Assembly (NCBI RefSeq): GCF_017349355.1
Contig: NZ_JAFMPM010000006.1
Coordinates: 806,001-870,000 of the forward strand
Source: Thiothrix fructosivorans
GTDB taxonomy: Bacteria; Pseudomonadota; Gammaproteobacteria; Thiotrichales; Thiotrichaceae
Length of the DNA stretch: 64,000 nucleotides
Reading direction: 5' to 3'
Part shown: piece after piece, positions 16,340 to 42,679 of the stretch
Layout: each line of letters opens with the position of its first letter
How positions within the stretch are numbered: position 1 is the stretch's first letter
The notes under the pieces: generated by a model
What the model was told of the DNA's origin: nothing
Database searches by the model: none
The model's input: only the letters and a program-made list of their open reading frames with translations
Translations under genes and position numbers: made by a program

Positions 16340-16347
16340 AACACACC

Positions 16348-25134: not shown

Positions 25135-26131
25135 ATTTTGTCTTTTTACTCGGATCAATTTCCGTTTGATGTAACTGTCGATTAAAGTGATCCGCCGTAC
25201 CCGCGACGTTTGCGGCAAGCAACGGATCTTTGCCCAGCACCGCAGCGGATGCCGCCGCCGCCAACACCGCTGCATTTTCCGACTGAAAGTATTCACCCGC
25301 CACACTGCCTGCCAAGCCGCCCACTGCGCCACTGATACCATCGCCATTAGCCACAGTACCCGCCGCAAAACCCAACGCGGTATGGGCGAGTTTGTGGGTA
25401 ACATTATTCAGCTTGCCCTCGCTGTACAAATCCCCAATCTTATTTGCCCCGATTTGGCTGACGATAGTGGCAGCCGTGGCTTTGAGGCTGGATTTGAGCT
25501 GATCATCAAAATCCCCACCTTCAACCACCGTGCTGACCGTGGCGCGGGTCAAGCCATCCAGTGCGTGTTTTTGAAGCTGTTGCGCCACGCTGATTTTGGT
25601 CGCGTCACCCGCCAGATTGAGGCTGTTGCTGAGTTTGCTCGATAGTCCTGCGCCGATAACCGCGCTGGCAAGTGATTTGATATTGCCCTCATCCACCGCC
25701 TTGACAACATCACGGGCGGTGATGACCGTGTTCACTACAGACGCAACGGGAGCTAGCGGTGTGAACTGTGCGATTTGTGCCACGGTACGGACAATGGGGT
25801 TATCCAGTACCTTGTCGGTAAATTTATCAATGACTTTTCCCAAACCATGCCGATCTCTGGACGGGTCAAACGCCCCATTTTTATTGTTGTCTGCGCCTGC
25901 CGTATGACCAGAGCGGGTATTTTCCTCAATCGCATCCAGCAAATCAGTGCCGGAAACGTTATAGGTTTTTCCTTGCGTCACTTGGAAGTCTTGGCGGACG
26001 GCTTTTTGAAAATCTGCCTGAGTGGTTTCAAACAGCTCACTCGGCAGTGCTTTCAGGATAGTCAGCGTGCTTTTCTTGGTTTGCGCGACGATTTCTCCCT
26101 TCGGATTGTAAGCCTCGCGATAAGGTTGCAA
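25094..26131 (-). pseudogene. Pre-toxin region of a large polymorphic toxin (type A), truncated
   Basis: 345 codons with no normal start; an N-terminal deletion has put the codons MIKGINP out of frame. Order: YREAYNPKGEIVAQTKKSTLTI...DLLDAIEENTRSGHTAGADNNKNGAFDPSRDRHGLGKVIDKFTDKVLDNPIVRTVAQIAQFTPLAPVASVV, then SLNLAGDATKISVAQQLQ, then the hemagglutinin-type Ala/Gly-rich segment (LTRATVSTVVEGGDFDDQLKSSLKATAATIVSQ...LGKDPLLAANVAGTADHFNRQLHQTE). That last part is the usual pre-toxin module of filamentous-hemagglutinin/CDI-like proteins. It lacks secretion and repeat regions. This copy is the only one with the full central segment. Confidence 0.7.
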
Positions 26132-26199
26132 GGCTTGATTGATTTGGTCGAGACGCGCTTTAACGGCTGGCGTTTGATGCTGTGGTTGTAACTGGGCGT

Positions 26200-26333
26200 G
26201 GGGTTAATACCTTTTATCATTCTAAATTCATTCTTTGAACAATCGCACTTGAATAATCCTTCAGAAAAACTTAGACGAACGCGGGAAGAACGTTTCAAGG
26301 CAAGGGATGAACGGATGATCTATCGGTATAAGC
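26200..26333. repeat. 134-bp junction repeat, copy 1
   Basis: Begins GGGGTTAATACC and ends AGC just before rtcB fragment sequence. Nearly identical 134-bp copies occur at 31944-32077 and 36277-36410, always linking the start of a pre-toxin frame (minus) with the same internal point of rtcB (plus). A diverged version lies at about 33854-33950. Contains the ribosome site and ATG of the pre-toxin frame. Confidence 0.88.
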
Positions 26334-26838
26334 GGCGTGGGCGCAGGATTTCGCACAAGCCAACCGCGAGCTGATGATGGCGCGTACTTTGCAGGCGATC
26401 CGCGAGGTGTTGCCGATCCCGTTCACGGCGGACGTGGAGGCGGTGAATTGCCACCACAACTACATCAGCCGCGAACACCATTACGGCAAGGATGTGTGGG
26501 TAACGCGCAAAGGCGCGGTGAGTGCGCAAAAAGGTCAGCTTGGGATTATTCCGGGCAGCATGGGGGCAAAATCGTTCATCGTGCGCGGGCTGGGTAATGA
26601 GGAAAGTTTTTGCAGTTGCAGCCACGGCGCGGGGCGCGTGATGTCGCGTACTGAGGCGAAACGCCGCGTGTCGCTGGAGGAGCATAAACGCGCCGTCGCC
26701 GGGGTGGAATGCCGCGTGGATGAAAGCGTGATTGATGAAACGCCGTCGGCTTACAAGCCGATTGATAAGGTAATGGCGGCGCAGAGTGATTTGGTGGAAG
26801 TGCTGCATACGCTCAAGCAGGTGGTGTGTGTGAAGGGG
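26334..26838 (+). pseudogene. rtcB 3' fragment, copy 1
   Basis: Encodes RtcB from about residue 243 (AWAQDFAQANRELMMART) to the C-terminal VVCVKG, over 95% like the parent, with one A-to-E change in GNEESFCS. The stop is lost by a G-run change (GGGGGG instead of GGGTTAA). No start or ribosome site of its own. Confidence 0.92.
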
Positions 26839-26851
26839 GGAAAATCATTCG

Positions 26852-26876
26852 CCCCCATGTCACTGAGATATGGGGG
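26852..26876 (+). terminator. Hairpin after rtcB fragment 1
   Basis: CCCCCAT (26852-26858) pairs with ATGGGGG (26870-26876). Identical hairpin after fragment 2 (32596-32620). It lies between converging rtcB and immunity sequences and could act on either strand. Confidence 0.5.
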
Positions 26877-26879
26877 AAA

Positions 26880-27047
26880 TTAGGAAAACTCGGCAATATG
26901 ATCCGCTATAGCCAACGCCAAAGAATCAAACCATTCACATCTGTCTTGAGGATCTCCATCAAGAAACAACTCCAGAAACTGTCTACTGAACTGTTGATCA
27001 TCACGATTTTCCCTAAAAAAATCAGCACTATGCACACAGTACATACT
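26880..27047 (-). pseudogene. Orphan 3' part of an immunity gene
   Basis: 168 bp nearly identical to the 3' two-thirds of the immunity-like gene at 32624-32878, including its stop. The 5' part and the matching toxin tip are absent; homology ends at about 27047 and other DNA follows, shortly before the IS66 insertion. Confidence 0.85.
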
Positions 27048-27089
27048 CAACTCATCGTATTTTCATATACGCTTTGCCTTGTAACCATG

Positions 27090-28675
27090 GTAAGCGTTCA
27101 CGCCGTCTGTAGCGGGTTAGAAGCTAACGGTTGAGCCAAAGGGAAGCGCACCGAGACAGACTTATGAGCCAAGCCTTGTGAGCAAATGTCCCGCATCAAT
27201 ATCGCCATATTCATCCCCAATTGACGTGCCGTCCCCAGCACGGTCATCACCGTTGGACGGAATCTGTCACCTTGTGCCGACTGGCTGGCAAAGCTGGTTT
27301 TCCGCCATTGCACATACGGCCTGATCACCCGCTCGGCACGGTTATTGGTGAGGGGAATGCGACTATCCTTGAGGAAAGTCCAACACATCGCCTCATCCTT
27401 GAGCAAATGCTTGCATTGGTTGGTGGTGCGTTTGCAATTCTCCAATGCCAAGCCTTTGTTGAGCGTGGCTTGGAAGCTGCGGCGCAAGCGGAGTATCCGC
27501 CGTTGGTAGCGAGCGGCTTCATCGGGTTGTTGTTGCCAGCGGTGATGGGTGCGGACGGTGGTATAGGCGAGTAACAACAGGCGTTTGCCCACGCTTCCCC
27601 CTTCGCCGCAACGCCCCGCCATTTTGCGGAAGTGGCGGATCAAATGCGCCCAACACAGTTGCCGCCGTTCGGGTGGGACGTTGCCGTAACCACTGAAGTG
27701 GTCGGTGACCAGATAGCCAGTAAAGCTGCCCAACAAGGCATCGGCGGCGGCCTTGCCGCGTGAGTAATGGGTCATGAAGTAACTCACGCTATGGTCAGCC
27801 AATGCCCATAACCAGTAAGTGTTCGTACCGCGATAATGGCGGGTTTCATCGGCGTGGCATACCGCTTGTCCGCGTACATACTGACCTACTTGACGGTATA
27901 GCGGCCCCATCCACGGAATGGCTTTGCCTTGCGCCTTGCTGATAGCCCCAGTGCTAAAACGCACGTGGCACATTTCCCACAACAGAACCTGGATCTGGCG
28001 CATGGATAGGCGGAACTGACCACTCAAAATCACCACCCAGGCGATCACGCCTGCACCCATTTGACCGCTCGGCACCCAATCCGGCCACTGGCTGTGGTGC
28101 TTGATGCCGCAGGATTGGCAAACACCCTGATAAAACTGGTGTTCCGTCACGTCCGGTGGCGGCGGTGGAGCAATATCCGTGACCTGATGGCGGTAAGGGT
28201 TTCCCCAATCAATCGCCACTGCCCCACCACAGGAACAGGTGCTTTCAGGGAAATACTGTTCGGTACGGGTCACTTGTTCGGGAGGATATAACGCCCGTTC
28301 GTGACGCGGATGCCCCGGTTGCCCACCGTGTGGGCGGCTACTCCCCTTGCGTTTGGGACGCAACGCCCGTTGTTCCGGGCTGTCGGAGGACGGCGCTTTG
28401 GAACTGTTACGCGAACTGCTGCCGAATTTGGCAACCAGTTCTTCCAGTTGTTTTTGCAGCATTTCGACTTGTTGCTCCAGCACCGCTACCCGTGCCGCTT
28501 GCTTCTCCAACTCGGTTATCCGTTCCTGTTGGCGCACGATCACCTGATGCGCTTCATCCAGTGTCGTGGGTAAGGTAGGAACGGCGGCTAACAAGGGGTA
28601 AATGACTCGCTGTTGGGATGGGGTGAATTTACTACAAGTTCGCTGGAATGCCTAATAGAGGGCGTGAACGCTTAC
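27090..28675 (-). mobile_element. IS66-family element, single-gene type
   Basis: 1586 bp. Terminal inverted repeats GTAAGCGTTCACGCC (27090-27104) and its complement (28661-28675), flanked by the 8-bp direct repeat TAACCATG (27082-27089 and 28676-28683), the normal IS66 duplication length. Only the tnpC-type gene is present, as in the ISBst12 subgroup that lacks tnpA/tnpB. Confidence 0.94.
27098..28594 (-). CDS. IS66-family transposase (TnpC type)
   Basis: 498 residues. N-terminal coiled coil (VIVRQQERITELEKQAARVAVLEQQVEMLQKQLEELVAKFG), a basic linker (RPKRKGSSRPHGGQPGHP), a zinc-finger-like region (CSCGG...CQSCGIKH), then the DDE core with CHADETRHYRG, LVTDHFSGYGNVPPERRQLCWAHLIRHF and the C-terminal NRAERVIRPYVQWRKTSFASQSAQGDRF signature of IS66. 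Full length, no interruption. Its stop lies inside the terminal inverted repeat. The element probably can still move. Confidence 0.95.
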   Translation of the reverse strand: MLAAVPTLPTTLDEAHQVIVRQQERITELEKQAARVAVLEQQVEMLQKQLEELVAKFGSSSRNSSKAPSSDSPEQRALRPKRKGSSRPHGGQPGHPRHERALYPPEQVTRTEQYFPESTCSCGGAVAIDWGNPYRHQVTDIAPPPPPDVTEHQFYQGVCQSCGIKHHSQWPDWVPSGQMGAGVIAWVVILSGQFRLSMRQIQVLLWEMCHVRFSTGAISKAQGKAIPWMGPLYRQVGQYVRGQAVCHADETRHYRGTNTYWLWALADHSVSYFMTHYSRGKAAADALLGSFTGYLVTDHFSGYGNVPPERRQLCWAHLIRHFRKMAGRCGEGGSVGKRLLLLAYTTVRTHHRWQQQPDEAARYQRRILRLRRSFQATLNKGLALENCKRTTNQCKHLLKDEAMCWTFLKDSRIPLTNNRAERVIRPYVQWRKTSFASQSAQGDRFRPTVMTVLGTARQLGMNMAILMRDICSQGLAHKSVSVRFPLAQPLASNPLQTA

Positions 28676-28696
28676 TAACCATGAGTGGATAAACAG

Positions 28697-29119
28697 TTAT
28701 TTCAACTTGATATGGATGAATGCAACGGATAAATTATCCGCATAGTATGCGGTGATCAGTCTTTCATTATCTACAAAGGCTTTTCCTGGAAAAGTTGGCT
28801 CTGATCCAGGAATTTTTATGGCTTTTATATCTCGTATTGGTGAACCAAACCTTCTTTCAAAATCTTCAAGTACGAAGAGATTGCTATACCTGCCTTTTAT
28901 ATTATCTTTTGCAGACAAGTATTTCTCATAATTCATCAAGAAAATACGAAAACCTGAAACGATTCCCGTGTCATTTTTCGATTGAAAATAAATGCCATCT
29001 TCGGGAAGCTCCACAAATTCATTACCTTCTGTTTTTTCATATGAAATCAATCTGCTGCTGGCTCTTATCTCCTGAAGAACATCTATAATCTTTCGACCAA
29101 TATAATTATTCAGCTCCAT
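28697..29119 (-). CDS. Hypothetical protein, possible immunity gene
   Basis: 140 residues, AT-rich, no signal or membrane segment. Mixed alpha/beta sequence with EDGIYFQSKNDTGIVSGFRIFLMNYEKYLS and IKAIKIPGSEPTFPGKAFVDNERLITAYYADNLSVAFIHIKL. I do not recognise a family. It is the last of three small same-strand genes behind the nuclease toxin tip, a pattern typical of immunity gene clusters. The IS66 insertion lies 13 bp beyond its stop. Confidence 0.55.
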   Translation of the reverse strand: MELNNYIGRKIIDVLQEIRASSRLISYEKTEGNEFVELPEDGIYFQSKNDTGIVSGFRIFLMNYEKYLSAKDNIKGRYSNLFVLEDFERRFGSPIRDIKAIKIPGSEPTFPGKAFVDNERLITAYYADNLSVAFIHIKLK

Positions 29120-29176
29120 AAGGTATCCCTAATTCATTAAACGTTCGTTGATTATATTCATGTATTCTAAGGAAAA

Positions 29177-29674
29177 TTATCTCAGCCAAAATGGTTTGCC
29201 ATCTAACTCATCATACTCCTTCAAAGGACGTTTCTCTTCCATCATGAGATAAATAGTGTCTGTTGGTATAATTTTAACTGGCTGGTAAATTTTAAAAGTG
29301 TTGTAAAACGATTTTGCAGAAGAAACTGCTCGATAAAAACTATCAAAAAATTTAGAAAAAACATCTGCCAACGTACTTAGCTCATGATTGAGTAGCGTCT
29401 TTTCAGCATTACCTACGATGTTTCTGTCCCATTCAACTGCATTACTTGGTATTTGCTTGAATGCCTCATTAACTCTATGCATGAGAGCAAGCGCCTGATC
29501 CAATTCATCAAACTTCAAATATCGCTTATACAACCTGTCTGTAAGCAAACTCCAATCCATATCTTTATTGTCAAATGCTGGATAAGCACTGATGCAATCA
29601 AAAAACAACTTCATATCTGAAGCAGAACCAAGCACATATATTGTGTGACCGCCATGAAAGCCTATCTTTTTCAT
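29177..29674 (-). CDS. Hypothetical protein, possible immunity gene
   Basis: 165 residues, starts MKKIGFHGGHTIYVLGSASDMKLFFDCISAYP, mostly helical, ends DTIYLMMEEKRPLKEYDELDGKPFWLR. No transmembrane segment. AT-rich like its neighbours. Family not recognised with confidence; the small-protein size, the pattern GSASDMKLFFDCI near the start and the position behind a toxin tip suggest an immunity protein, perhaps acquired with another toxin now lost. Preceded by a GGAGGGGT ribosome site. Confidence 0.55.
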   Translation of the reverse strand: MKKIGFHGGHTIYVLGSASDMKLFFDCISAYPAFDNKDMDWSLLTDRLYKRYLKFDELDQALALMHRVNEAFKQIPSNAVEWDRNIVGNAEKTLLNHELSTLADVFSKFFDSFYRAVSSAKSFYNTFKIYQPVKIIPTDTIYLMMEEKRPLKEYDELDGKPFWLR

Positions 29675-29699
29675 TACCCCTCCGTTTACCAGATTATTT

Positions 29700-30017
29700 T
29701 TAATAGATAAATCTTGTTTTTATTTTATCATTATTGTCGATAATTATAACAAGTTTTCTCCAATCTCCTCCTGTGTGACTTTGCATTAAACTATGCAATT
29801 CAAAGACCAATTTCGAAGTCTCATCTATATCATCGTTTAGTAAAAAATATTTCTTCTCATCTTTTACTTCACATGAAAAAGTTGACTCTACTGACCATGA
29901 TTTTCCTTCTTGCTCGAAGTCAAAAACACACTCCAATCTTTCGTAATCACTTGTTGCACTAAAGTACATAATTTGACTTAAACGATTTAATATTTGAACT
30001 TGTGATTCTATAGTCAT
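29700..30017 (-). CDS. Probable cognate immunity protein of the nuclease tip
   Basis: 105 residues, acidic (DYERLECVFDFEQEG, LNDDIDETSK), as expected for a protein that binds a basic nuclease. It starts 3 bp after the toxin stop. The C-terminal SHTGGDWRKLVIIIDNNDKIKTRFIY resembles the end of DUF600/YezG-type nuclease immunity proteins, but the similarity is weak and only by eye. Cytoplasmic, no signal. Its position directly after the toxin makes it the best candidate for the cognate immunity gene. Confidence 0.6.
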   Translation of the reverse strand: MTIESQVQILNRLSQIMYFSATSDYERLECVFDFEQEGKSWSVESTFSCEVKDEKKYFLLNDDIDETSKLVFELHSLMQSHTGGDWRKLVIIIDNNDKIKTRFIY

Positions 30018-30019
30018 AG

Positions 30020-31160
30020 TTACTTGCTCGATTCATTATTAAATGACTTACGTTTTGGAATATTGTTTATACTATATTCAATAACTAAGGAATCTGGTCT
30101 TGCTGATGTATTATCATTTCTGTTAAATTTAACAGTTACAGCGCCGACTCTATCTCCATTACTGAACGAGCTTCTGATTTCATTTTCCCATTTTTTATAC
30201 ATCGAGTTATTAAAGTTAGCATCCTGAGGAAACAAGTTGAATCGATCGCAAGTTCCTCCTAAAGAACAAGCTTGAATATGTCCGCCTACATCCGTAGATA
30301 TTCCCTCCTTACCCGCAGCAGTTTGGCGACTATCCCTAACGCCTGTTAACAACATGGGATTGAAAGTAATTTCATCAACATAGCCACTCGCATTAGTTTT
30401 AAACTCAGTACCATTGTCAAGTTTAACATGAGTATTTGCTGGCGGACTATTTAATACTTCATATTCAGATGTGCCTTTAACTGCATTAGAAGTTTTTACC
30501 TCTATAATCGGTATTTCAGCCCTTCTTTGTGTCGATTCTGTTTTATTGGATTTTAAAACATCCCTCGCATCTTCTGCCATATTTTTTACAACAGATTTAC
30601 CAACACCTTTAACCCCAGTGTAATCGGTGACGGTATTGGCTGCCGCTGCTACAGCAAGGATAGCAGCAACTTCGTTAGCATCGCTATCACCATAGATACC
30701 TTCCAACCCTAACCAGTCATAAGCGCCATTCCTGGCGGTCTTCTGGTCATTCCATAACCCGTTAAGATCATGTTGCACGGTTTGATAACCCTGTTGGATG
30801 GTTTGTTTAGCTAATTCATCCGGGGTAATGGCTAAGGTTTCCTCATCACGGTGTTTGTCCTGTTCCTTCAACCCATCAATAACGCTTTGAGGGTCAGCGA
30901 TAACGGCCTTTACTATTTGTAGTGCTTCATCCGAACCTTGTGCAAGGTAGGTTTTGAGATTGTCAGCATTGATCGGCTTGGTGCGGACGTCCGCCGGAAT
31001 GGCGCGGTTGAGGAAAGTGGCATTTTGCTTGGCTGCATCTGCATAAATGCCAGAGCGCCAGTAGTCATTATCTTGAGTGAAAACAGTGCGTTGGATGTTG
31101 CTGTCATCAGTGAATGTTCCGATTGCCTTGCTACTGGCAAGGGTTTGTCTGAAGTTGTTG
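30020..31160 (-). pseudogene. Toxin tip (type B) with DNA/RNA non-specific endonuclease domain
   Basis: Open for about 380 codons but without a proper start; it begins at a recombination scar (31140-31160) where the upstream pre-toxin frame is shifted. The first about 260 codons of the tip form the type B pre-toxin module (TDDSNIQRTVFTQDNDYWRSGIYADAAKQNATF ... YDWLGLEGIYGDSDANEVAAILAVAAAANTVTDYTGVKGVGK). The C-terminus is a His-Me-finger nuclease: KLDNGTEFKTNASGYVDEITF, GGHIQACSLGGTCDRFNLFPQDANFNNSMYKKWENEI (catalytic-type H in GGH, N in NLFPQ), like the Endonuclea_NS_2 family. The tip domain itself looks intact; only the connection upstream is broken. Confidence 0.7.
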
Positions 31161-31964
31161 CGCTACGCTGATTTTAGTCGCATCCCCTGCCAGATTGAGG
31201 CTATTGCTGAGCTTGTTTGATAGCCCCGCACCGATGACTGTGCTGGCAAGTGATTTGATATTGCCCTCATCCACTGCCTTAACAACATCTCGTGCAGTAA
31301 TAACCGTGTTGACCACGGAGGCGACAGGCGCTAGCGGGGTGAACTGAGCAACTTGTGCCACCGTGCGGACAATGGGATTATCCAGCACTTTATCGGTGAA
31401 CTTATCAACAACCTTGCCCAAACCATGACGATCTCTGGATGGGTCAAACGCGCCATTTTTATTATTGTCTGCACCTGCCGTATGACCAGAACGGGTATTT
31501 TCTTCAATCGCATCCAGTAAATCAGTGCCAGAAACGTTATAGGTTTTGCTTTGTGTCACCTTGAAGTCTTGGCGAACAGCTTTTTGAAAATCAGCCTGAT
31601 TGGTTTCAAACAGATCAGCCGGTAACGCTTCCCGAATAGTAAGCGTGCTCTTCTTGGTTTGCGCGACGACTTCTCCCTTAGGATTGTAAGCCTCGCGATA
31701 GCGCTGCAATTCCTGATTGATTTGGTCGAGACGCGCTTTGACCACCGGAATGTGATGCTGCGGTTGTAACTGGGCGTATTCATCGAACAATGCTTGCATG
31801 TCCGATGTTTTGAGCTTCTGTGTATCAGGATTGCTTTGTTGTCGCGGCTGAATTGGCGCTATTGCGGCATTGAAGAGCATTGCAGCTTGTTGATTTGCCG
31901 TCGTGGTTGCTCTGGAACTGCCAAAGTTGGCTGGCGAAGGGTTGGGGTTAATACCTTTTATCAT
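31131..31964 (-). CDS. Pre-toxin N-terminal fragment of a polymorphic toxin, longest copy
   Basis: 277 codons from MIKGINPNPSPANFGSSRATTT. This is the only copy with the full start: Pro/Gln-rich leader, then AQLQPQHHIPVVKARLDQINQELQRYREAYNPKGEVV, the TYNVSGTDLLDAIEENTRSGHTAGADNNKNGAFDPSRDRHGLGK stretch, and SLNLAGDATKISVAQQLQ. It ends TNPCQ-stop at the scar, where one base shift would continue into the toxin tip. The ATG at 31962-31964 has AAGGAA 11 bases upstream. No secretion signal, so not an exported effector on its own; it could be a silent donor cassette. Confidence 0.65.
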   Translation of the reverse strand: MIKGINPNPSPANFGSSRATTTANQQAAMLFNAAIAPIQPRQQSNPDTQKLKTSDMQALFDEYAQLQPQHHIPVVKARLDQINQELQRYREAYNPKGEVVAQTKKSTLTIREALPADLFETNQADFQKAVRQDFKVTQSKTYNVSGTDLLDAIEENTRSGHTAGADNNKNGAFDPSRDRHGLGKVVDKFTDKVLDNPIVRTVAQVAQFTPLAPVASVVNTVITARDVVKAVDEGNIKSLASTVIGAGLSNKLSNSLNLAGDATKISVAQQLQTNPCQ

Positions 31965-32077
31965 TCTAAATTCATTCCTTGAACAATCGCACTTGAATAA
32001 TCCTTCAGAAAAACTTAGACGAACGCGGGAAGAACGTTTCAAGGCAAGGGATGAACGGATGATCTATCGGTATAAGC
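31944..32077. repeat. 134-bp junction repeat, copy 2
   Basis: Same length and limits as 26200-26333 and 36277-36410. Here the pre-toxin side is the undeleted version. Confidence 0.88.
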
Positions 32078-32585
32078 GGCGTGGGCGCAGGATTTCGCGC
32101 AAGCCAACCGCGAGCTGATGATGGCGCGTACTTTGCAGGCGATCCGCGAGGTGTTGCCGATCCCGTTCACGGCGGACGTGGAGGCGGTGAATTGCCACCA
32201 CAACTACATCAGCCGCGAACACCATGACGGCAAGGATGTGTGGGTGACGCGCAAAGGGGCGGTGAGTGCGCAAAAAGGTCAGCTTGGGATTATTCCAGGC
32301 AGCATGGGGGCGAAATCGTTCATCGTTCGGGGCTTGGGTAATGCCGAAAGTTTTTGCAGTTGCAGCCACGGCGCGGGGCGCGTGATGTCGCGTACTGAGG
32401 CGAAACGCCGCGTGTCGCTGGATGAGCATAAACGCGCCGTCGCCGGGGTGGAATGCCGCGTGGATGAAAGCGTGATTGATGAAACGCCGTCGGCTTACAA
32501 GCCGATTGATAAGGTAATGGCGGCGCAGAGTGATTTGGTGGAAGTGCTGCATACGCTCAAGCAGGTGGTGTGTGTGAAGGGGTGA
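32078..32585 (+). pseudogene. rtcB 3' fragment, copy 2
   Basis: RtcB from about residue 243 to the end with the stop TGA kept (VVCVKG). Changes include H-to-D in SREHHDGKD, shared with fragment 3 at 36411, showing that copies 2 and 3 are closer to each other than to the parent. No start signal. Confidence 0.92.
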
Positions 32586-32595
32586 AAATCATTCG

Positions 32596-32620
32596 CCCCC
32601 ATGTCACTGAGATATGGGGG
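32596..32620 (+). terminator. Hairpin after rtcB fragment 2
   Basis: CCCCCAT (32596-32602) pairs with ATGGGGG (32614-32620), same as after fragment 1; lies 3 bp before the immunity gene stop on the other strand. Confidence 0.5.
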
Positions 32621-32623
32621 AAA

Positions 32624-32878
32624 TTAGGAAAACTCGGCAATATGATCCGCTATAGCCAACGCCAAAGAATCAAACCATTCACATCTGTCTTGAGGATCTC
32701 CATCAAGAAACAACTCCAGAAACTGTCTACTGAACTGTTGATCATCACGATTTTCCCTAAAAAAATCAGCACTATGCACACAGTACATACCAGTATGCAA
32801 ATTCTTCAAGCAGGTATAACGAATAGCACAGTGACTATCCTGCCGCCACCATACAAAATGTTCTTCATAAAGATTCAT
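32624..32878 (-). CDS. Probable immunity protein of the RNase-like tip
   Basis: 84 residues from MNLYEEHFVWWRQDSHCAIRYTCLKNLHTGMYCVHSADFF (a GTG 12 bases earlier at 32890 is possible). Acidic C-terminus (LELFLDGDPQDRCEWFDSLALAIADHIAEFS). It resembles small toxin-immunity proteins that inhibit an RNase. It begins 9-21 bp after the toxin stop. Its 3' two-thirds is duplicated without the toxin at 26880-27047, showing that immunity segments are copied independently within the array. Confidence 0.6.
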   Translation of the reverse strand: MNLYEEHFVWWRQDSHCAIRYTCLKNLHTGMYCVHSADFFRENRDDQQFSRQFLELFLDGDPQDRCEWFDSLALAIADHIAEFS

Positions 32879-32898
32879 TAATTTCACCAAAGATTAAA

Positions 32899-33729
32899 CT
32901 ACTGAGGAATCCATCGCCCTGAATTCACGCGTCCCTCTGTATTTGAACGAGGGTTCTTGAATTGTGTAACAATCTCACCATGTTCATCGACGATGACGAC
33001 TCTATCACCCGCGACGTAAACTGTATGACCTCTATCCGCATCAATGTACTGTCGTCCCTCTCGGATTACTTTGTTTGCATCTCCCACACTTCTATGTGAA
33101 TCATGCTGACCTTCTTCATATCGTTCTTGTCCATGCCCTGTTCGCTTTATGTTTTTTACAACAGACTCTCCAATACCCTTAACCCCAGTGTAGTCGGTGA
33201 CGGTATTAGCTGCCGCTGCAACAGCAAGGATAGCAGCAACTTCGTTAGCATCGCTATCGCCGTAAATATCTTCCAACCCTAACCAGTCATAAGCGCCATT
33301 CGTGGCGGTCTTCTGGTCATTCCATAACCCGTTAAGGTCATGTTGCACGGTTTGATAGCCTTGTTGGATTCTTTGTTTGGCAAATTCATCTGGGGCAGTG
33401 GATAAGGCTTCCTCGTAAGTTTGCTTGGCCTGTTCCTTCAACCCATCAATAACGCTTTGAGGGTCAGCGATAACGGCCTTTACTATTTGTAGTGCTTCAT
33501 CCGAACCTTGTGCAAGGTAGGTTTTGAGATTGTCAGCATTGATCGGCTTGGTGCGGACGTCCGCCGGAATGGCGCGGTTGAGGAAAGTGGCATTTTGCTT
33601 GGCTGCATCTGCATAAATGCCAGAGCGCCAGTAGTCATTATCTTGAGTGAAAACAGTGCATTGGATGTTGCTGTCATCAGTGAATGTTCCGATTGCCTTG
33701 CTACTGGCAAGGGTTTGTCTGAAGTTGTT
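32899..33729 (-). pseudogene. Toxin tip (type B) with small RNase-like domain
   Basis: The same type B pre-toxin module as 30020-31160, preceded by the same scar, then a different C-terminal domain of about 75 residues: GHGQERYEEGQHDSHRSVGDANKVIREGRQYIDADRGHTVYVAGDRVVIVDEHGEIVTQFKNPRSNTEGRVNSGRWIPQ. The His/Arg pattern at the start, an alpha helix with IREG, then beta strands (HTVYVAGDRVVIVDEHGEIVTQF) resemble BECR-fold toxin RNases and DUF4258-like domains. Family membership is inferred from pattern. The tip is intact; its upstream link is frameshifted. Confidence 0.6.
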
Positions 33730-33856
33730 GCGCTACGCTGATTTTAGTCGCATCCCCTGCCAGATTGAGGCTATTGCTGAGCTTATTTGATAGCCCCGCA
33801 CCGATGACTGTGCTGGCAAGTGATTTGATATTGCCCTCATCCACCGATTTAAGCAT
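33701..33856 (-). pseudogene. Short pre-toxin fragment
   Basis: 52 codons (SVDEGNIKSLASTVIGAGLSNKLSNSLNLAGDATKISVAQQLQ, scar stop). Matches the other pre-toxin copies from KAVDEGN onward; everything upstream is replaced by a diverged form of the junction repeat (about 33854-33950) and then by dps and PIN relics. Confidence 0.8.
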
Positions 33857-33968
33857 TCTAAATTCGTTTATTGAATAATCCTTCAAAAAAATGTAGGCGA
33901 ATGCGGGCAAAACGTTTTGAGACAAGGGATGGACGGACGATTTGTTGATGTAAGCGGTAGTATGGGTA

Positions 33969-34064
33969 ATGACATCTAGCGACGAACCCACCGCCGATTT
34001 GCTGACGCAGCGGATGCAAATCCACGAAAATAACGCGTGGATGTTGCGTAGCATGTTGGAGTGA
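33969..34064 (+). pseudogene. dps 3' remnant
   Basis: 31 codons, [31 protein letters not shown], then TGA. This is the C-terminal helix of Dps-type ferritin-like proteins (DLLxxRMxxHExxAWMLR). The rest of the gene is absent. Adjacent to the diverged junction repeat, in the place occupied by rtcB in the other copies. Confidence 0.75.
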
Positions 34065-34092
34065 TACGCGCCGTCACTTGTTTTCTGAATGC

Positions 34093-34185
34093 ATGGCTCA
34101 TGTTGTCATAGCAGATGCTGCTCCATTGGTTGCCTTGGCACAACTCAATGGGTTGCAACAGCACAACCAAGCCCGAATTGTTTAA
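34093..34185 (+). pseudogene. PIN-domain (DUF3368-type) N-terminal remnant
   Basis: 30 codons, MAHVVIADAAPLVALAQLNG then QQHNQARIV and stop. VIADAAPLVALAQL is the first strand and helix of DUF3368 PIN proteins with the first acidic residue. It could be the missing 5' end of a UPF0175-associated toxin like the remnant at 18157-18260, though not necessarily the same copy. Confidence 0.6.
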
Positions 34186-34255
34186 AAAGAGAATTTATAA
34201 TCAGTCGGGTCTTAACTGCTATCGAAGTCAGGAAAATTGCAGGAGTTAGATCCGC

Positions 34256-34732
34256 TTATTGTTCACATTCATGCATTGATTGATCATCATCAAGGCGAAC
34301 ATAAGCTGAATCAACCATCACTGGATATTCTTCGATTTCCTCAATATCAGGAATATAAAGGCGCACCAAATCATTTCCAATAGTGATGCCATACCCATCA
34401 TTATTAATGATGTAGGGTATTTTTTCTTCATCTAATTGCTTGCCCAATAATGGCCAACTTGTATGCAGAAGATAAATTCCATTAATGACCACATCCGCTT
34501 GATTTTGATAACGGAACACCTCAAACCCTATAAGGGTGTCTTTATCTTGATAGTAAAGGTGTAGACCAATATTTTTTACATCATCTGTGGGGATAGTTGA
34601 ATAGGATGGGCTTTTTACAAAAGTTTCTACATCTCTAGCAATCAATGCTCTAACTTCTGTACGAGTAAGACCTTTTTCAAGCAGAATAAACTGATCTCCA
34701 ATCTTTAATTGAGGGTATATCGATTCCATCAT
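34256..34732 (-). CDS. Probable immunity protein of the DSHHxPA tip
   Basis: 158 residues, acidic, soluble: YPQLKIGDQFILLEKGLTRTEVRALI, LHLYYQDKDTLIGFEVFRYQNQADVVINGIYLLHTSWPLLGKQLDEE, NDGYGITIGNDLVRLYIPDIEEIEEYPVMVDSAYVRLDDDQ. Overlaps the toxin stop by 4 bp. No named family recognised, but the length and the alternating strand pattern fit immunity proteins. Apparently intact. Confidence 0.6.
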   Translation of the reverse strand: MMESIYPQLKIGDQFILLEKGLTRTEVRALIARDVETFVKSPSYSTIPTDDVKNIGLHLYYQDKDTLIGFEVFRYQNQADVVINGIYLLHTSWPLLGKQLDEEKIPYIINNDGYGITIGNDLVRLYIPDIEEIEEYPVMVDSAYVRLDDDQSMHECEQ

Positions 34733-35658
34733 CTTCTAAAATCCTCAGGGTTAAGTGTTCGGGCGTATTCAAGCATCTCCTCAATGGCTGGGTCATATTT
34801 GTTACCAAATTTACTGCGAATATCATCAATATCCATCTGAATGGCATCCATTAGCTTGCCTTGTTGCAGTAATGCTTGTTGTCTTGATCGGTAAGCTAGG
34901 GCGCTAGCACTAGAGCCAGAACTTTCGGTTCGTTGGTGATCCGCAGGATCCATTTTAATCGCAGTCCCATCTGCTGAGCTGATTCGAGAGCCTTTATAGC
35001 AATTTTTAGCTGGGCAATGGTGTGAATCCATACCGTCGTTTGTGGGTTTGCTGGTATCCTTGTGCGCACCACCTAAAACTCTGTTGATCTCGGATTTCCC
35101 AATACCTTTAACCCCAGTGTAGTCGGTGACGGTATTAGCTGCCGCTGCAACAGCAAGGATAGCAGCAACTTCGTTAGCATCGCTATCACCATAGATACCT
35201 TCCAACCCTAACCAGTCATAAGCGCCATTCCTGGCGGTCTTCTGGTCATTCCATAACCCGTTAAGGTCATGTTGCACGGTTTGATAGCCTTGTTGGATTC
35301 TTTGTTTGGCAAATTCATCTGGGGCAGTGGATAAGGCTTCCTCGTAAGTTTGCTTGGCCTGTTCCTTCAACCCATCAATAACGCTTTGAGGGTCAGCGAT
35401 AACGGCCTTTACTATTTGTAGTGCTTCATCCGAACCTTGTGCAAGGTAGGTTTTGAGATTGTCAGCATTGATCGGCTTGGTGCGGACGTCCGCCGGAATG
35501 GCGCGGTTGAGGAAAGTGGCATTTTGCTTGGCTGCATCTGCATAAATGCCAGAGCGCCAGTAGTCATTATCTTGAGTGAAAACAGTGCGTTGGATGTTTC
35601 TGTCATCAGTGAATGTTCCGATTGCCTTGCTACTGGCAAGGGTTTGTCTGAAGTTGTT
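34729..35658 (-). pseudogene. Toxin tip (type B) with DSHHxPA nuclease-like domain
   Basis: Third copy of the type B pre-toxin module with the same scar. After GVKGIGKSEINRVLGGAHKDTSKPTNDG the C-terminus reads DSHHCPAKNCYKGSRISSADGTAIKMDPADHQRTESSGSS...YRSRQQALLQQGKLMDAIQMDIDDIRSKFGNKYDPAIEEMLEYART. DSHHxPA ... DGxAIxMxPxDHxxTxSxG is a recurring C-terminal domain of polymorphic toxins, of HNH/SHH-nuclease type. The upstream link is frameshifted as in the other copies; the tip itself appears intact. Confidence 0.65.
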
Positions 35659-36276
35659 GCGCTACGCTGATTTTAGTCGCATCCCCTGCCAGATTGAGGC
35701 TATTGCTGAGCTTGTTTGATAGCCCCGCACCGATGACTGTGCTGGCAAGTGATTTGATATTGCCCTCATCCACTGCCTTAACAACATCTCGTGCAGTAAT
35801 AACCGTGTTGACCACGGAGGCGACAGGCGCTAGCGGGGTGAACTGGGCAATTTGTGCCACAGTGCGGACAATAGGATTATCCAGCATTTTATCGGTGAAC
35901 TTATCAACAACCTTGCCCAAACCATGCCGATCTCTGGACGGGTCAAATGCTCCATTTTTGTTATTGTCTGCACCTGCCGTATGACCAGAACGGGTATTTT
36001 CTTCAATCGCATCCAGTAAATCAGTGCCAGAAACGTTATAGGTTTTGCTTTGCGTCACCTTGAAATCTTGGCGGACGGCTTTTTGAAAATCAGCCTGATT
36101 GGTTTCAAACAGATCAGCCGGTAACGCCTCCCGAATAGTAAGCGTGCTTTTCTTGGTTTGCGCAACGACTTCCCCCTTAGGGTTGTAAGCCTCGCGATAG
36201 CGCTGCAATTCCTGATTGATTTGGTCGAGACGCGCTTTGACCACCGGAATGTGATGCTGCGGTTGTAACTGGGCGT
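35630..36276 (-). pseudogene. Pre-toxin fragment with N-terminal deletion
   Basis: Same content as 31131-31964, but about 170 bp between ...QLQP and MIKGINP are deleted, at the same junction (GGGCGT/GGGGTT) as in the copy at 25094-26131. The first codons are therefore out of frame and the ORF begins only at VVKARLDQINQ. Ends at the scar. Confidence 0.8.
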
Positions 36277-36410
36277 GGGGTTAATACCTTTAATCATCCT
36301 AAATTCATTTCTTGAACAATCGCACTTGAATAATCCTTCAGAAAAACTTAGACGAACGCGGGAAGAACGTTTCAAGGCAAGGGATGAACGGATGATCTAT
36401 CGGTATAAGC
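36277..36410. repeat. 134-bp junction repeat, copy 3
   Basis: Third copy, same length and boundaries as at 26200 and 31944. Confidence 0.88.
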
Positions 36411-36903
36411 GGCGTGGGCGCAGGATTTCGCGCAAGCCAACCGCGAGGTGATGATGGCGCGTACTTTGCAGGCGATCCGCGAGGTGTTGCCGATCCCGTT
36501 TACGGCGGATGTGGAGGCGGTTGCCACCACAACTACATCAGCCGCGAACACCATGACGGCAAGGATGTGTGGGTGACGCGCAAAGGCGCAAAAAGGTCAG
36601 CTTGGGATTATTCCGGGCAGCATGGGGGCGAAATCCTTCATCGTGCGCGGGCTGGGTAATGCCGAAAGTTTTTGCAGTTGCAGCCACGGCGCGGGGCGCG
36701 TGATGTCGCGTACTGAGGCGAAACGCCGCGTGTCGCTGGATGAGCATAAACGCGCCGTCGCCGGAGTGGAATGCCGTGTGGATGAGGCGGTGATTGATGA
36801 AACCCCGTCGGCTTACAAGCCGATTGATAAGGTGATGGCGGCGCAGAGTGATTTGGTGGAAGTGCTGCATACGTTGAAGCAGGTGGTGTGTGTGAAGGGG
36901 TGA
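36411..36903 (+). pseudogene. rtcB 3' fragment, copy 3
   Basis: RtcB from about residue 243 to the end. It carries two small deletions (4 bp near GAGGCGGTTGCC, 36520; 11 bp near CGCAAAGGCGCAAAAAGG, 36590) that break the frame, and an SVID-to-AVID change. Stop TGA kept. Confidence 0.9.
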
Positions 36904-37008
36904 GTAACGGCAGATACGCCAGCAATCCGCGAATCTGGCATGATCAGGAAGATGGAGCGTATCACCATCTTTCTGAATTAATTTAGGACTTACGCATTTA
37001 CCTTAGAT

Positions 37009-39322: not shown

Positions 39323-39534
39323 GAAAATAGATTCCTATCTTTATAGATATGAAATTCCATTGCCTCGTTCTCCTCTTGAATCAGCATATCAAATAAAAAC
39401 GTTAATTATCAAAAAACTTGGCACACCTCTTGCGAGACAACTGACGACTTTCGTTACTTGTGGAGTAGGTTCAACCGCCTGCCTGACGCGCCCACCGCTG
39501 GTGTACCCGCGTATCTGTTTCTGAAGTCCCAAAC

Positions 39535-39602
39535 GCAGCTATAGCTCAGTGGTAGAGCAACCGAGAGATCGGTGGTCATGGGTTCGACTCCCATTAGCTG
39601 CT
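39535..39602 (+). tRNA. tRNA-like gene with a four-base anticodon loop
   Basis: Perfect 7-bp acceptor (GCAGCTA/TAGCTGC), D arm (GCTC-AGTGGTA-GAGC), T arm (ATGGG-TTCGACT-CCCAT) and a perfect 5-bp anticodon stem (ACCGA/TCGGT), but the loop between the latter is only GAGA, so three bases, including the anticodon, are missing. The loop is a GNRA tetraloop. Variable region GGTC. CCA is not encoded (CCT follows). Cannot decode; either a decayed tRNA or a tRNA-like RNA. Confidence 0.6.
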
Positions 39603-39603
39603 C

Positions 39604-39640
39604 CTTACCATAGCTCGTTGGGTAGAGCACTTGAGTTGTT
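39604..39640 (+). pseudogene. 5' half of a second tRNA, cut by a TnpB element
   Basis: CTTACCA-TA-GCTC-GTTGGGTA-GAGC-A-CTTGA-GTTGTT fits the acceptor 5' strand, D arm and anticodon 5' stem of a tRNA, with TGT in the anticodon position (Thr-like). The sequence then enters the IS200/IS605-type right end at GACATCC. No 3' half is found on the other side of the element. Confidence 0.6.
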
Positions 39641-39681
39641 GACATCCTCCCCTCCCTAAAGGAAGGGGATTCCTACTGCAT
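39639..39681 (-). ncRNA. Omega-RNA 3' end of the TnpB element
   Basis: On the minus strand, CCCCTTCC-TTTA-GGGAGGGG forms the hairpin of an IS200/IS605 right end, followed by GAGGATGTCAA, the usual scaffold end of TnpB guide RNAs. The guide would be the flanking 20 bases, CAACTCAAGTGCTCTACCCA, complementary to the truncated tRNA (39619-39638). Confidence 0.6.
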
Positions 39682-40938
39682 TCAGCCAGATAGCTGACTT
39701 ACTTCGGTGAGTTCCTGCTTCACAGAGCGGCGTAATGCCACATCTCCACAGGCTAACAAGCGGTGCCCCCGCTCTAAAACATTGACCGCCCCGACCACAT
39801 CGGCGTGGTTTTCATAGTCACATTCCACACACGCAAAGCGAGCTTGGGTTTGGCGGTTAGCGGCTGACACATGACCGCAACACGGGCAGGTTTGGCTGGT
39901 ATGGTGCGGTGGCACGGCAAACAGTATCCCGCCGTTCCATGCCGTTTTGTAATCCAGTTGCCGCCGAAATTCGCCCCAGCCTTGATCGAGGATCGCCTTG
40001 TTTAAGCCAGATTTGGCTGCAACGTTTTTGCCGGGATTTTCTGCCGTACCTGCCGCTGACTTGGACATATTCCGTACCTGCAAATCTTCGATGAACACGA
40101 GCGCGTGGTTTTGGCTAATCGTGGTCGTCGCTTTGTGCAGGAAATCACGGCGGGCATTGGCTATTTGTGTATGCGTTTTTTGAACTTTGGCTTTGGCTTT
40201 TTTCCAGTTGTTGCTGAATTTCTGCTTGTGTGTCATGCGCCGTTGGTATTTGGCGAGCTTGGCTTGTTGGATTTTAAAGCTGTTGAGCGGGGCAATATAG
40301 CTGCCATCCGAGAACGTGGCAAAACGGGCTATGCCCAAGTCAATACCAATGCTTCGGCTGCACTCAGCACCAGTAGCCGTAGTAGACACAGATTGTTCCA
40401 CTTCCCGCTGGGTTTGGATGCTGATGTACCACTTGCCGCTTTTGCCGGAAACGGTGACATTGCGCAATTCCCCCAACGCCTCACGGCTGTTGCGGTAGCG
40501 TATCCAGCCCAGTTTGGGCAGGAAAATACGGTTGTTACCTTGGTCAAGCTTGATTTGTTTGGGATCAGGGTAGCGGAAACTGTCACCGCTACCCCTGCGT
40601 TTGAAACGCGGAAAATCAGCGCGTTTGGCAAAGAAATGTTGGTAAGCTTTGTCGAGATCTTTCAGCGCATGTTGCAGCGGATGAATGGGAGAATCCTTCA
40701 ACCACGGGGTCTCTGTGCCATTACGCCATGCCGTCAGGTATTTTGCCATTGCCACGTAACCGATGAATTTTTTACCTGCTTCATGATTCGCTTGCTGCAA
40801 CGCTAACGCCTTGTTGTAAACAAATCGGCACGAACCCGCATAACGGCGCAGATTGCGCTGTTGTCCACCGTCTGGCTTGAGTTCGTATTTGAAGGCTTGG
40901 AGTCGTTGCATTTTCTGGAGTGTAGCCAACAATCGCAT
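39682..40938 (-). CDS. tnpB: TnpB RNA-guided nuclease (IS200/IS605 family)
   Basis: 418 residues. N-terminal OrfB helix-turn-helix (MQRLQAFKYELKPDGGQQRNLRRYAGSCRFVYNKALALQQ from about residue 10), the RuvC core with SIGIDLGIARFATFSDG (first Asp), VFIEDLQVRNMS (Glu), and HTSQTCPCCGHVSAANRQTQARFACVECDYENHADVVGAVNVL, which holds the zinc ribbon and the last Asp. All catalytic positions are present, so the nuclease looks active. Known relatives cut DNA at the guide-matching empty site to favour retention of the element. A start at codon 10-12 (MQRLQAFK) is more typical than the annotated one. Confidence 0.93.
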   Translation of the reverse strand: MRLLATLQKMQRLQAFKYELKPDGGQQRNLRRYAGSCRFVYNKALALQQANHEAGKKFIGYVAMAKYLTAWRNGTETPWLKDSPIHPLQHALKDLDKAYQHFFAKRADFPRFKRRGSGDSFRYPDPKQIKLDQGNNRIFLPKLGWIRYRNSREALGELRNVTVSGKSGKWYISIQTQREVEQSVSTTATGAECSRSIGIDLGIARFATFSDGSYIAPLNSFKIQQAKLAKYQRRMTHKQKFSNNWKKAKAKVQKTHTQIANARRDFLHKATTTISQNHALVFIEDLQVRNMSKSAAGTAENPGKNVAAKSGLNKAILDQGWGEFRRQLDYKTAWNGGILFAVPPHHTSQTCPCCGHVSAANRQTQARFACVECDYENHADVVGAVNVLERGHRLLACGDVALRRSVKQELTEVSQLSG

Positions 40939-41046
40939 GGATGAGAGTGGATTTATGTGCTAAACGGTGTTGCTTGGCAGATTAACCTGCGAACATAGGC
41001 TGCTTCGCCACCCGCGCTATCCTCCCCGCCCTGAAGGACGAGGTTT

Positions 41047-41932
41047 GTCGCGCAATCTGATCAAGCCGCCTGCGCAACGGGGCGCGTGCTGGCAAAGTCA
41101 GCGCAGCATCGAAGTCCGTAAGCTCGACATCAGCACCGATTACAAGCTGCCCAAAGCCTTGGCAAGCCAGTTGCTGACCGCAAAAGATGCCACCTTACGG
41201 GCGGCGGCGTTAAACGCGCTGGTGATGGCTACCATCCCCGAAGGTCACACCGGCTTTCTGGAAGTCGACGGCGAACAGCGCGAAATACTGACAGCAGGTA
41301 CGCACGTTTGGTGGCAATTCAACCACACGATCAAGGTCACGCAACTCGATTGCCGCCTGCAAAACATGGAAGTCAACGGTCAGGAAATCCTCACCAAAGA
41401 CCGCGTAGGCTTGCGCATCAATCTTTCCGCCATGTGGCAGATTGTTGATCCGCAGCAAGTCAAAACGGCACTGGCAGACCACAAGGACTACCTGTACCGC
41501 GAGCTGCAACTGGCGTTACGTGCCGTGGTTTCCACCCAAACGCTGGACGAATTGCTGGCAGACAAAAACCTGCTGAACCAATCCATCCAGCAAACGGTCG
41601 CGGAAAAAGCAGCGGCTTACGGCATCGACCTGAAAACCGTCGGAGCGCGTGACATCGTATTGCCCGGTGACATGAAGGCGATTCTGGCGCAAGTTGTCGA
41701 AGCCGAAAAACGCGCTGAAGCCAACCTGATCCGCCGCCGCGAAGAAACGCAGGAAACCCGTTCCCTGCACAACACCGCCAAGGTCATGGAAGGCAACCCG
41801 GTCTTGCTGCGCCTGAAAGAGCTGGAAATCTTGGAGAAGATCACCGGACGCATCAGCACCCTGAACGTCTACGGCGGTCTGGATGGCGTCATGAACGATC
41901 TGGTCAAGCTGACCGACAAATGTAAGGCATAA
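41047..41932 (+). pseudogene. Slipin (SPFH/band 7) protein lacking its N-terminus
   Basis: Open frame of about 295 codons joining the element left end to SPFH sequence: SIEVRKLDISTDYKLPKALASQLL..., VDGEQREILTAGTHVWWQFNHTIKVTQLDCRLQNMEVNGQEILTKDRVGLRINLSAMWQIVDPQQVKTALADHKDYLYRELQLALRAVVSTQTLDELLADKNLLNQSIQQTVAEKAAAYGIDLKTVGARDIVLPGDMKAILAQVVEAEKRAEAN. That is the band-7 domain and the following coiled coil of a slipin. The usual membrane anchor at the N-terminus has been lost to the insertion. A terminator follows the stop. Confidence 0.8.
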
Positions 41933-41942
41933 TGCCCTCAAC

Positions 41943-41970
41943 GTGACCATGAGATTACCCTCATGGTCAC
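41943..41970 (+). terminator. Rho-independent-type terminator after slipin
   Basis: GTGACCATGAG (41943-41953) and CTCATGGTCAC (41960-41970), perfect 11-bp stem, 6-base loop, followed by CTTT. Palindromic, so it would work in either direction. Confidence 0.75.
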
Positions 41971-41989
41971 CTTTAAACACGGATATTGT

Positions 41990-42679
41990 ATGAAACTAAA
42001 CTTTTATGAGTTATTAACGAAGGATCAGAACTTTTGCTCCGCGTTAGGGAAAACTGTTTTGGCGGCTGGGCGATTAGAGAGTACTTTGAAATCATACTTG
42101 CTCAGCACGTTATTTAATATCGACAAAATTAATAGACAAACCATGGTAAAACAAAGTAAATTCCTCAGCCTCATTCTGCGCCACCAGCCAGAGAAAATCG
42201 GTTTGATATTGGACGAAGCAGGTTGGGTGTCCGTGAGCGAATTACTCGCACAATTAGCTGCGCACGGTCGCGGCATGAGCATGGAAGAACTGGAATATGT
42301 CGTTGTCACCAATGACAAACAACGTTTCAGTTTCAACGCAGACAAAACCCACATCCGTGCCAATCAAGGGCATTCCCTGCAAACACTCGATTTAGGTTTG
42401 CAGCCTGTTGAGCCGCCCGAAATCCTGTATCACGGTACGGTGGAACGCTTTCTGGAGTCGATTTTGCCAACGGGGTTGGAAAAACGTTCGCGCCAGCATG
42501 TGCATTTGTCCGCCGATATAGACACCGCGCACAAGGTTGGTAGTCGTCATGGTAAGCCTGTCATTCTGAAAGTGGCGGCAGGACAAATGCAGCGTAATGG
42601 GTGTGTTTTTTTTCGCTCAGATAATGGCGTATGGCTGACAGACCACGTACCGATAGTTTACCTTTCAATAAACAGCTAA
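41990..42679 (+). CDS. kptA: RNA 2'-phosphotransferase with extra N-terminal segment
   Basis: 229 residues from MKLNFYELL. The KptA/Tpt1 enzyme proper starts at residue 52 (MVKQSKFLSLILRHQPEKIGL, ATG at 42143). Signature residues are visible: LRHQPEKIGL (Arg, His), RANQGHS (His), YHGT, RSRQHVHLS (Arg) and CVFFRSDNGVWLT (Arg). It transfers an RNA-internal 2'-phosphate to NAD, giving ADP-ribose 1''-2''-cyclic phosphate. The first about 51 residues (KLNFYELLTKDQNFCSALGKTVLAAGRLESTLKSYLLSTLFNID) are not part of the family and look like the start of another protein, in frame by chance or a real fusion. Family members are about 180 residues. Confidence 0.9.
   Translation: MKLNFYELLTKDQNFCSALGKTVLAAGRLESTLKSYLLSTLFNIDKINRQTMVKQSKFLSLILRHQPEKIGLILDEAGWVSVSELLAQLAAHGRGMSMEELEYVVVTNDKQRFSFNADKTHIRANQGHSLQTLDLGLQPVEPPEILYHGTVERFLESILPTGLEKRSRQHVHLSADIDTAHKVGSRHGKPVILKVAAGQMQRNGCVFFRSDNGVWLTDHVPIVYLSINS

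Follow-up and report, generated by a model that had tools for sequence, protein, structure and literature searches.

RtcR-controlled RNA-repair operons are found in many bacteria, and it may be asked why some of them carry tRNA-like RNAs and SPFH membrane proteins. A case in point is a locus of Thiothrix fructosivorans that lies in a 64,000-nucleotide stretch of contig NZ_JAFMPM010000006.1 (positions 806,001 to 870,000 of the forward strand; hereafter the window), where a tRNA-like unit with a shrunken anticodon arm, TL1, is found upstream of a gene for slipin, an SPFH/Band_7 protein. In 2016, Burroughs and Aravind reportedly connected SPFH/Band-7 modules of RNA-repair systems with a novel tRNA-like molecule, which is very probably of the same kind.

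In Pelobacter carbinolicus, the 'mutant tRNA' Pcar_R0061 is flanked by a divergent rtcR on one side and, on the other, by a stomatin-like gene with rtcA and rtcB behind it, and reciprocal changes preserve its cloverleaf. The authors who described it judge that it does not serve translation, deny that it is a pseudogene, and suggest that it functions in RNA repair or editing (PMC3543383). YrlA, a bacterial Y RNA (RF02553), is likewise described as a tRNA-mimic module in an RtcR-controlled RNA-repair operon, rsr-yrlBA-rtcBA (PMC8394870, PMC7790460, PMC9879122). YrlA resembles tRNA in its D, T, and acceptor arms and is modified by DusA and TruB, its tRNA-like domain binding PNPase and its stem binding Rsr (PMC8394870). 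RtcR binds tRNA 5' halves ending in a cyclic phosphate, and the YrlA tRNA-like domain might competitively inhibit the nuclease (PMC7790460). SPFH proteins are connected with RNA repair in other bacteria too: in Pseudomonas aeruginosa the rtc locus includes PaFlo8 (PMC13086221), and in Anabaena the genes listed as TrcR-controlled include both rtcB and a slipin gene (PMC10272220). A tRNA-like RNA accompanied by an SPFH gene in an rtc locus is, then, an already known kind of RNA, and the tandem, leader-bearing, partly anticodon-less form described here is a variant of it. Neither the tandem arrangement with its leader and 3' domain nor members lacking a normal-size anticodon loop were encountered in searches of open-licence papers.

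TL1 is interpreted here, with moderate confidence, as a tRNA mimic that does not decode and that forms part of a multi-domain noncoding RNA (ncRNA) of the RtcR/sigma54 RNA-repair regulon, placed directly upstream of slipin. This RNA is predicted to comprise a leader, TL1, a second tRNA-like unit (TL2), and a structured 3' domain, and to measure roughly 400-600 nucleotides (nt). Its structure, conservation, covariation, and gene context are directly observed. In the window, the elements concerned are:

39419 to 39434, forward strand: putative sigma54-type promoter, TGGCAC-N5-TTGC (-24/-12), from a pattern match
39448 to 39532, forward strand: conserved leader RNA domain, 85 nt, from alignment and covariance model
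39535 to 39604, forward strand: TL1, tRNA-like unit 1, from ARAGORN, Rfam tRNA, stem parsing, and covariation
39560 to 39573, forward strand: shortened anticodon arm of TL1, ACCGA-GAGA-TCGGT, from stem parsing and arm-length comparison
39605 to 39638, forward strand: 5' part of TL2, cut in the anticodon arm, from alignment with intact relatives

The two units follow each other head to tail with almost no spacer, behind the sigma54-type site and the leader and upstream of slipin and of the RNA 2'-phosphotransferase KptA. TL1 is the sole tRNA gene that ARAGORN reports in the window (39535-39604, forward strand), where it receives no tRNA type and a two-base 'anticodon', and at 39535-39602 it scores 58.3 bits against the Rfam tRNA family (RF00005), passing the cut-off of 29. 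Stem parsing finds every pair of the acceptor (7/7), D (4/4), and T (5/5) stems, and the anticodon stem consists of 5 base pairs (bp), ACCGA/TCGGT, capped by a four-base GAGA. The perfect stems and GAGA loop reported by the first-pass annotation are confirmed. TL1 shares with a canonical bacterial tRNA its acceptor, D, and T arms and the Rfam score given above, but it has the four-base GAGA in place of the 7-base anticodon loop of a functional tRNA, and no CCA is encoded at its 3' end, which reads TCC and then T. In the control set from the same genome (43 tRNA matches, 30 loci fetched, 28 parsed, and two that failed parsing), the CCA end is present in all 28 parsed tRNAs. A search of the genome for a second copy of TL1 gave one match, TL1 itself, and the nearest tRNAs among the 30 loci, tRNA-His and tRNA-Asn, share 55 of about 70 positions with it. 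Decoding by TL1 is very unlikely, and by TL2 doubtful.

Among relatives, the short anticodon arm is a recurrent property of the first unit. Arm length, measured between the D stem and the T stem, was relied on in place of the loop size given by minimum-free-energy folding, because the latter is rough and assigned 3-base loops to 7 of 28 true tRNAs. The units compared were hand-picked from those parsed, with 25 named loci and the window for TL1 and 27 loci for TL2; the parse demands a regular T arm, and units without a D arm or without other arms are omitted (e.g., L055, L057, L059, L060), as is the copy of genome G004 (L046), which does enter the TL1 covariation alignment. Arms below 22 nt were found in 16 of 26 TL1 units (with the L078 arm, 18 or 22 nt depending on how its D arm is read, entered as 22), in 2 of 27 TL2 units, and in none of the 28 tRNAs of the genome, all of which have arms of 22-23 nt. 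For TL2 the arm is 23 nt in 24/27 units, 21 nt in two, and 25 nt in one. The TL1 arm measures 19 nt in this strain and 15 nt, the shortest value, in genome G014; elsewhere, the D arm is missing from some first units, which retain a capped hairpin. In the near relatives G002, G003, G010, and G012, the arm reads ACCGA-GAGAT-TCGGT. The earlier description of the loop as three bases short therefore holds against a normal tRNA but not against these relatives, than which it is only about one base shorter. The comparison with relatives suggested at that stage shows TL1 recurring beside slipin, the nearest copies carrying a 5-base and not a 7-base loop. A GNRA loop as a conserved family signal was considered and rejected, since only two of the six 4-base TL1 loops of the comparison are of this type (GAGA here and GCAA in L095); in G014 a GCAA loop appears solely with an alternative pairing.

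These data bear on the possibility that TL1 is a decaying tRNA pseudogene or the product of a chance loss of loop bases, which is considered very unlikely. The gene set is indeed broken in this strain, and of 195 three-base deletions simulated in 13 anticodon arms of the genome, 78 keep a perfect 5-bp stem and a 4-base loop, so that a short loop on a perfect stem is by itself unremarkable, even if none of those 78 loops is GNRA. Nonetheless, relatives, some of them with an intact slipin, have TL1 in the same place with short loops, the stems are perfect here and covary across the family, the genome holds no second copy, and its best-matching tRNAs share the 55 positions given above. The chance loss of three bases from a normal gene that had been proposed finds no support, given that shortened arms are common for TL1 in relatives. 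In G014, slipin is intact and the TL1 arm is shorter still, so the anticodon-less state is not caused by the break in this strain. For the family, decay is rejected on the basis of covariation and repeated occurrence, while this broken copy may still be undergoing it.

The same comparison bears on whether TL1 is a tRNA still used in translation, or one charged for a non-translation product (e.g., glycine), which is hardly credible. Its G1-C72 and C2-G71 pairs and U73 correspond to a tRNA-Gly pattern, tRNA-Gly is among the nearest tRNAs of the genome (53 identical positions), and the acceptor end is intact. U73 is present in 14/26 TL1 units, and an encoded NCCA end in 14/26 TL1 units and, as parsed, 1/27 TL2 units (in the TL2 ends of L094 and L095, the CCA lies one base before the parsed position). 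Such a use is nevertheless difficult to reconcile with an arm that has no normal-size anticodon, with the CCA not being encoded here, with a discriminator base that is not constant among relatives, and with anticodons that differ between species.

The arms of TL1 are maintained by paired substitutions. Across 27 sequences, the acceptor, D, and T helices are paired in 98.1% of cells; changes on both sides are seen in 12 of 16 pairs, compared with an average of 8.6 in shuffles, 1 of 500 of which reaches 12, and the covariation value is 0.644, whereas shuffles give 0.206 and slid structures no more than 0.177. The anticodon helix was excluded from this calculation, as MAFFT misaligned the 3' side of the arm. 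In the leader (32 sequences), 12/18 pairs have both-sided changes, with covariation of 0.504 versus 0.191 shuffled and at most 0.077 slid, and in the 3' domain between TL2 and slipin (10 sequences), 28/50 pairs do, with 0.464 versus 0.170 and at most 0.074; the pair counts in all three domains ignore shared ancestry, and the leader alignment was fitted to the model structure. No Rfam family covers the leader in scans of the window, L066, and L082, or the 3' domain in scans of L066 and L082. The covarying stems, together with the slipin neighborhood in relatives, support the earlier suggestion of a structural RNA, in the form of a non-decoding RNA tied to RNA repair; a role as a substrate of RtcB or KptA is conjectural.

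The distribution of the RNA follows that of slipin. With a 301-base query, the leader and tRNA-like units were recovered over most of their length in 8 of 39 other genomes (G002, G003, G004, G005, G010, G012, G014, and G019); the raw tally of 21/40, own genome included, also counts genomes in which nothing but the transposon end or parts of tRNAs matched. The leader covariance model has matches in 20 of 63 family genomes, covering 5/8 genera, and all 20 are among the 21 family genomes with slipin. In 19 of these 20 leader loci, the slipin start lies 401-721 nt from the leader start, the exception being this genome, and in 12 a sigma54-type site stands directly before the leader. In a sample of the class, the model matched 6/369 genomes; three of these are in the family (this genome included), G383 is outside it, and the matches in G105 and G171 (L064 and L065; E 1.7e-4 and 9.4e-4) were dropped as chance, with no tRNA-like unit or slipin near.

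A scan of genome contigs with two peptide patterns, which favors near relatives and may omit the window's own record, matched 102 stretches, of which 40 were confirmed as slipin loci. These span Thiothrix, Thiolinea, Thiofilum, Methylobacter, Methylomonas, Methylomicrobium, Cellvibrio, Microbulbifer, Gallionella, Bacteroidota, and others, and include the cultured species Thiothrix caldifontis, T. lacustris, Thiolinea disciformis, and Thiofilum flexile. The leader is found in 32/40 of them at E<=1 and in 29/40 at E<=0.001, the eight misses being L085 and L091 (contig short upstream), five Bacteroidota loci (L100-L104), and L105 (partial match). At least one ARAGORN tRNA lies within 1.5 kb upstream of slipin in 34/40 loci, some of which may be ordinary tRNAs, as is probable for the ARAGORN genes of L080 (Val, other strand) and L102. 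RtcB is present in the flanks of 20/40 loci (upstream in 16, downstream in 4), and the order divergent rtcR, rtcB, RNA, slipin, within 5 kb, occurs in 13; the leader is detected in every one of these 13 at E<=1, and 10 of them still have it at E<=0.001. BLAST assigned 17/40 loci to the RtcR cluster, among which the L066 match (+1912) is discounted, as its start resembles that of an NtrC-type response regulator. Loci L066-L070 (Thiothrix) have a sigma54-type site before the leader and no rtcB in the flanks covered; in L071 (same genus, judged by G007), rtcB is upstream and the sigma54-type site is absent. The overlapping loci L069 and L029 (Candidatus Thiothrix singaporensis) carry slipin followed by a 466-aa gene, an 850-aa gene starting with a P-loop-like motif, and KptA, an RNA-repair set fuller than that of the window.

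In the class sample, slipin occurs in 40/369 genomes at E<=1e-20. Among 19 more distant loci drawn from its strong slipin matches (L138-L156), at least one ARAGORN tRNA is present in 14, a few of these being plainly ordinary, and upstream T-arm motifs in the other 5. It would seem that the tRNA-like units have a wider distribution than the leader, unless the leader has diverged too far for the model to recognize it. In one of these loci, L154 (G305), the slipin homologue sits between tRNA clusters, with 13 tRNA genes in 4.1 kb.

The constant position in front of slipin is also what would be expected of a cis-acting 5' leader of slipin, in which the tRNA-like units serve as RNase P/RNase Z processing sites or as a regulatory leader, and TL1 is inactive in trans; in a variant of this explanation, the element separates rtcB from the slipin mRNA or adjusts slipin translation. 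The distances seen in 19/20 loci are in its favor, as is the fact that TL1 and TL2 nearly abut, so that TL1 would be trimmed by cleavage at the point where TL2 starts. However, the leader and the 3' domain covary independently, beyond the need of a processing signal, and the purine-rich stretch before the slipin start (consensus AAGGAC) is unpaired in the predicted structure, giving no sign of a translation switch. A purely cis-acting role is accordingly regarded as unlikely.

Compared with the Pelobacter type, the present RNAs share the position of a tRNA-like unit directly upstream of stomatin/slipin (all 20 leader genomes have slipin, close behind the leader in 19 and truncated here) and a cloverleaf kept by reciprocal changes while decoding features are lost. 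They differ in their tandem units, of which there are two (one or three at some loci), in the conserved domains on either side of these units, namely the leader and the 3' domain, and in a TL1 whose anticodon arm has shrunk. Compared with YrlA, the cloverleaf units are unpermuted. RF02553 gives full-length weak matches across the TL1-TL2 junction (30.1 bits in L066 and 33.3 in L082). Its score in the window is 23.5 bits, and all three values are far below the cut-off of 69; 19.9 bits over part of the model were obtained in an apparent ordinary tRNA cluster. Ro60/TROVE (PF05731) has no match in the genome, and one of the 25 genomes searched (G008) has a weak one. Membership in the Y RNA family was rejected on these sub-threshold scores and the lack of a Ro60 match.

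The varied anticodons of TL2, which change from species to species, and its retained 23-nt arm are suggestive of a decoy or sensor for anticodon nucleases, with TL2 being cut instead of real tRNAs or its fragments feeding RtcR, and TL1 acting as a cut-resistant partner. TL1, the more altered unit, lacks the loop that such nucleases cut, and YrlA fragments were not detected in the work reported in PMC7790460; this role is judged improbable.

The right-hand part of the locus in this strain is interrupted by a transposon. The remaining features are:

39639 to 41059, no strand assigned: IS605-type TnpB element and junction, replacing about 575 bp of G014, from the homology break, with approximate ends
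39682 to 40938, reverse strand: TnpB-type protein, 418 aa (OrfB_IS605, Cas12f1-like_TNB), from Pfam
41060 to 41932, forward strand: slipin (SPFH/Band_7) remnant without about the first 96 codons, from alignment and Pfam Band_7 (E=3e-28, obtained on a longer open reading frame starting at 40967)
41963 to 42679, forward strand: KptA/Tpt1 RNA 2'-phosphotransferase, from Pfam PF01885 (E=6.6e-53)
16289 to 17580, forward strand: RtcB ligase (Pfam match from about 16450), with a second sigma54-type site in front at 16289 to 16304

Homology to L066, the intact set of G014, ends at window position 39638 (L066 5714) and restarts at 41060 (L066 6289), and homology to L068 likewise ends at 39638. The break has cost about 575 bp of intact sequence, and with it the 3' domain, one half of TL2, and the beginning of slipin. 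The slipin remnant is 89-95% identical in DNA to intact copies, which suggests that the break is recent. Slipin was found once in the genome, as this remnant (matching residues 76-386 of the query alignment), and the leader/TL1/slipin system is therefore probably disabled or altered in this strain; the surviving leader and TL1 are probably a recent relic or a partly working RNA.

RtcB and KptA had been described as near TL1; KptA is at 41963-42679, while RtcB (16288-17580) lies 22 kb away and has partial copies at 22-37 kb. RtcR, which activates rtc operons through sigma54, has its N-terminal domain at C6:804341-804877, some 1.1 kb beyond the left edge of the window and about 40 kb from TL1. 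The sigma54-type pattern has three exact matches in the window (11442, 16289, and 39419) versus 0.49 expected, a number reached in 0/100 shuffles; the one at 11442 is inside an isopropylmalate-synthase-like gene and is probably due to chance. Between 16334 and 36900, RtcB is followed by four more partial copies on the forward strand (about 22.0-22.6, 26.3-26.8, 32.1-32.6, and 36.4-36.9 kb), whose 300-nt 3' segments are 95-96% identical to the reference copy. They alternate with repeated reverse-strand toxin-like cassettes having a common N-terminal part, and the 3' end of rtcB seems to be part of an amplified unit. The reverse-strand array at 24742-37000, whose units have variable ends and small adjoining genes, is reminiscent of polymorphic-toxin cassettes (DUF637, Endonuclea_NS_2), and a HEPN-domain protein of the pEK499_p136 family is encoded at 17613-18140, immediately 3' of RtcB.

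Several observations weigh against the assignment of TL1 to a non-decoding RNA of the RtcR regulon. This genome has no intact slipin, and the pair counts are blind to ancestry as stated above. The CCA encoded by over half of the TL1 units is like that of a charged or processed tRNA. The RNA tracks slipin and not RtcR: in the genus Thiothrix, RtcR is present in 15/16 genomes and leader with slipin in 10/16, and 5 of the 6 genomes without the latter have RtcR. No sigma54-type site (<=2 mismatches) was found just before the leader outside Thiothrix, Thiolinea, and Thiofilum, where the RNA would then come by read-through from rtcB or from another promoter. Finally, the leader model at E<=0.001 matches only 3 of the 19 more distant slipin loci.

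For the non-decoding mimic favored here, we infer that the RNA would be transcribed under RtcR control, and that each binding step would proceed as follows. Cleavage of tRNA would lead RtcR to turn on rtcB, the RNA, and slipin (with KptA behind slipin in several Thiothrix). Through their D/T elbow and acceptor stem, the units would mimic tRNA and recruit a tRNA-handling factor, while the leader and 3' domain would bind slipin or a partner at the membrane, in the manner of a Y RNA bridging Ro60 to PNPase; TL1 and TL2 would thus present the tRNA shape to a tRNA-handling protein, with the other domains tying the RNA to slipin. Because decoding would not be needed, the anticodon arm of TL1 would be free to shrink to a short capped hairpin. 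More speculatively, and with considerable doubt, the leader, tandem tRNA-like units, and 3' domain may form one large RtcR-regulon RNA, a scaffold on which slipin would build a membrane-bound particle for repair or decay that does without Ro60, and the tandem order, which sets the T arm of TL1 beside the D arm of TL2, may be the origin of the permuted tRNA module of YrlA. The locus thereby poses the question of what role a tRNA shape has where decoding is impossible, and a leader model that locates the RNA by sequence and structure, the 40 named loci, and the natural anticodon-less members make this question testable.
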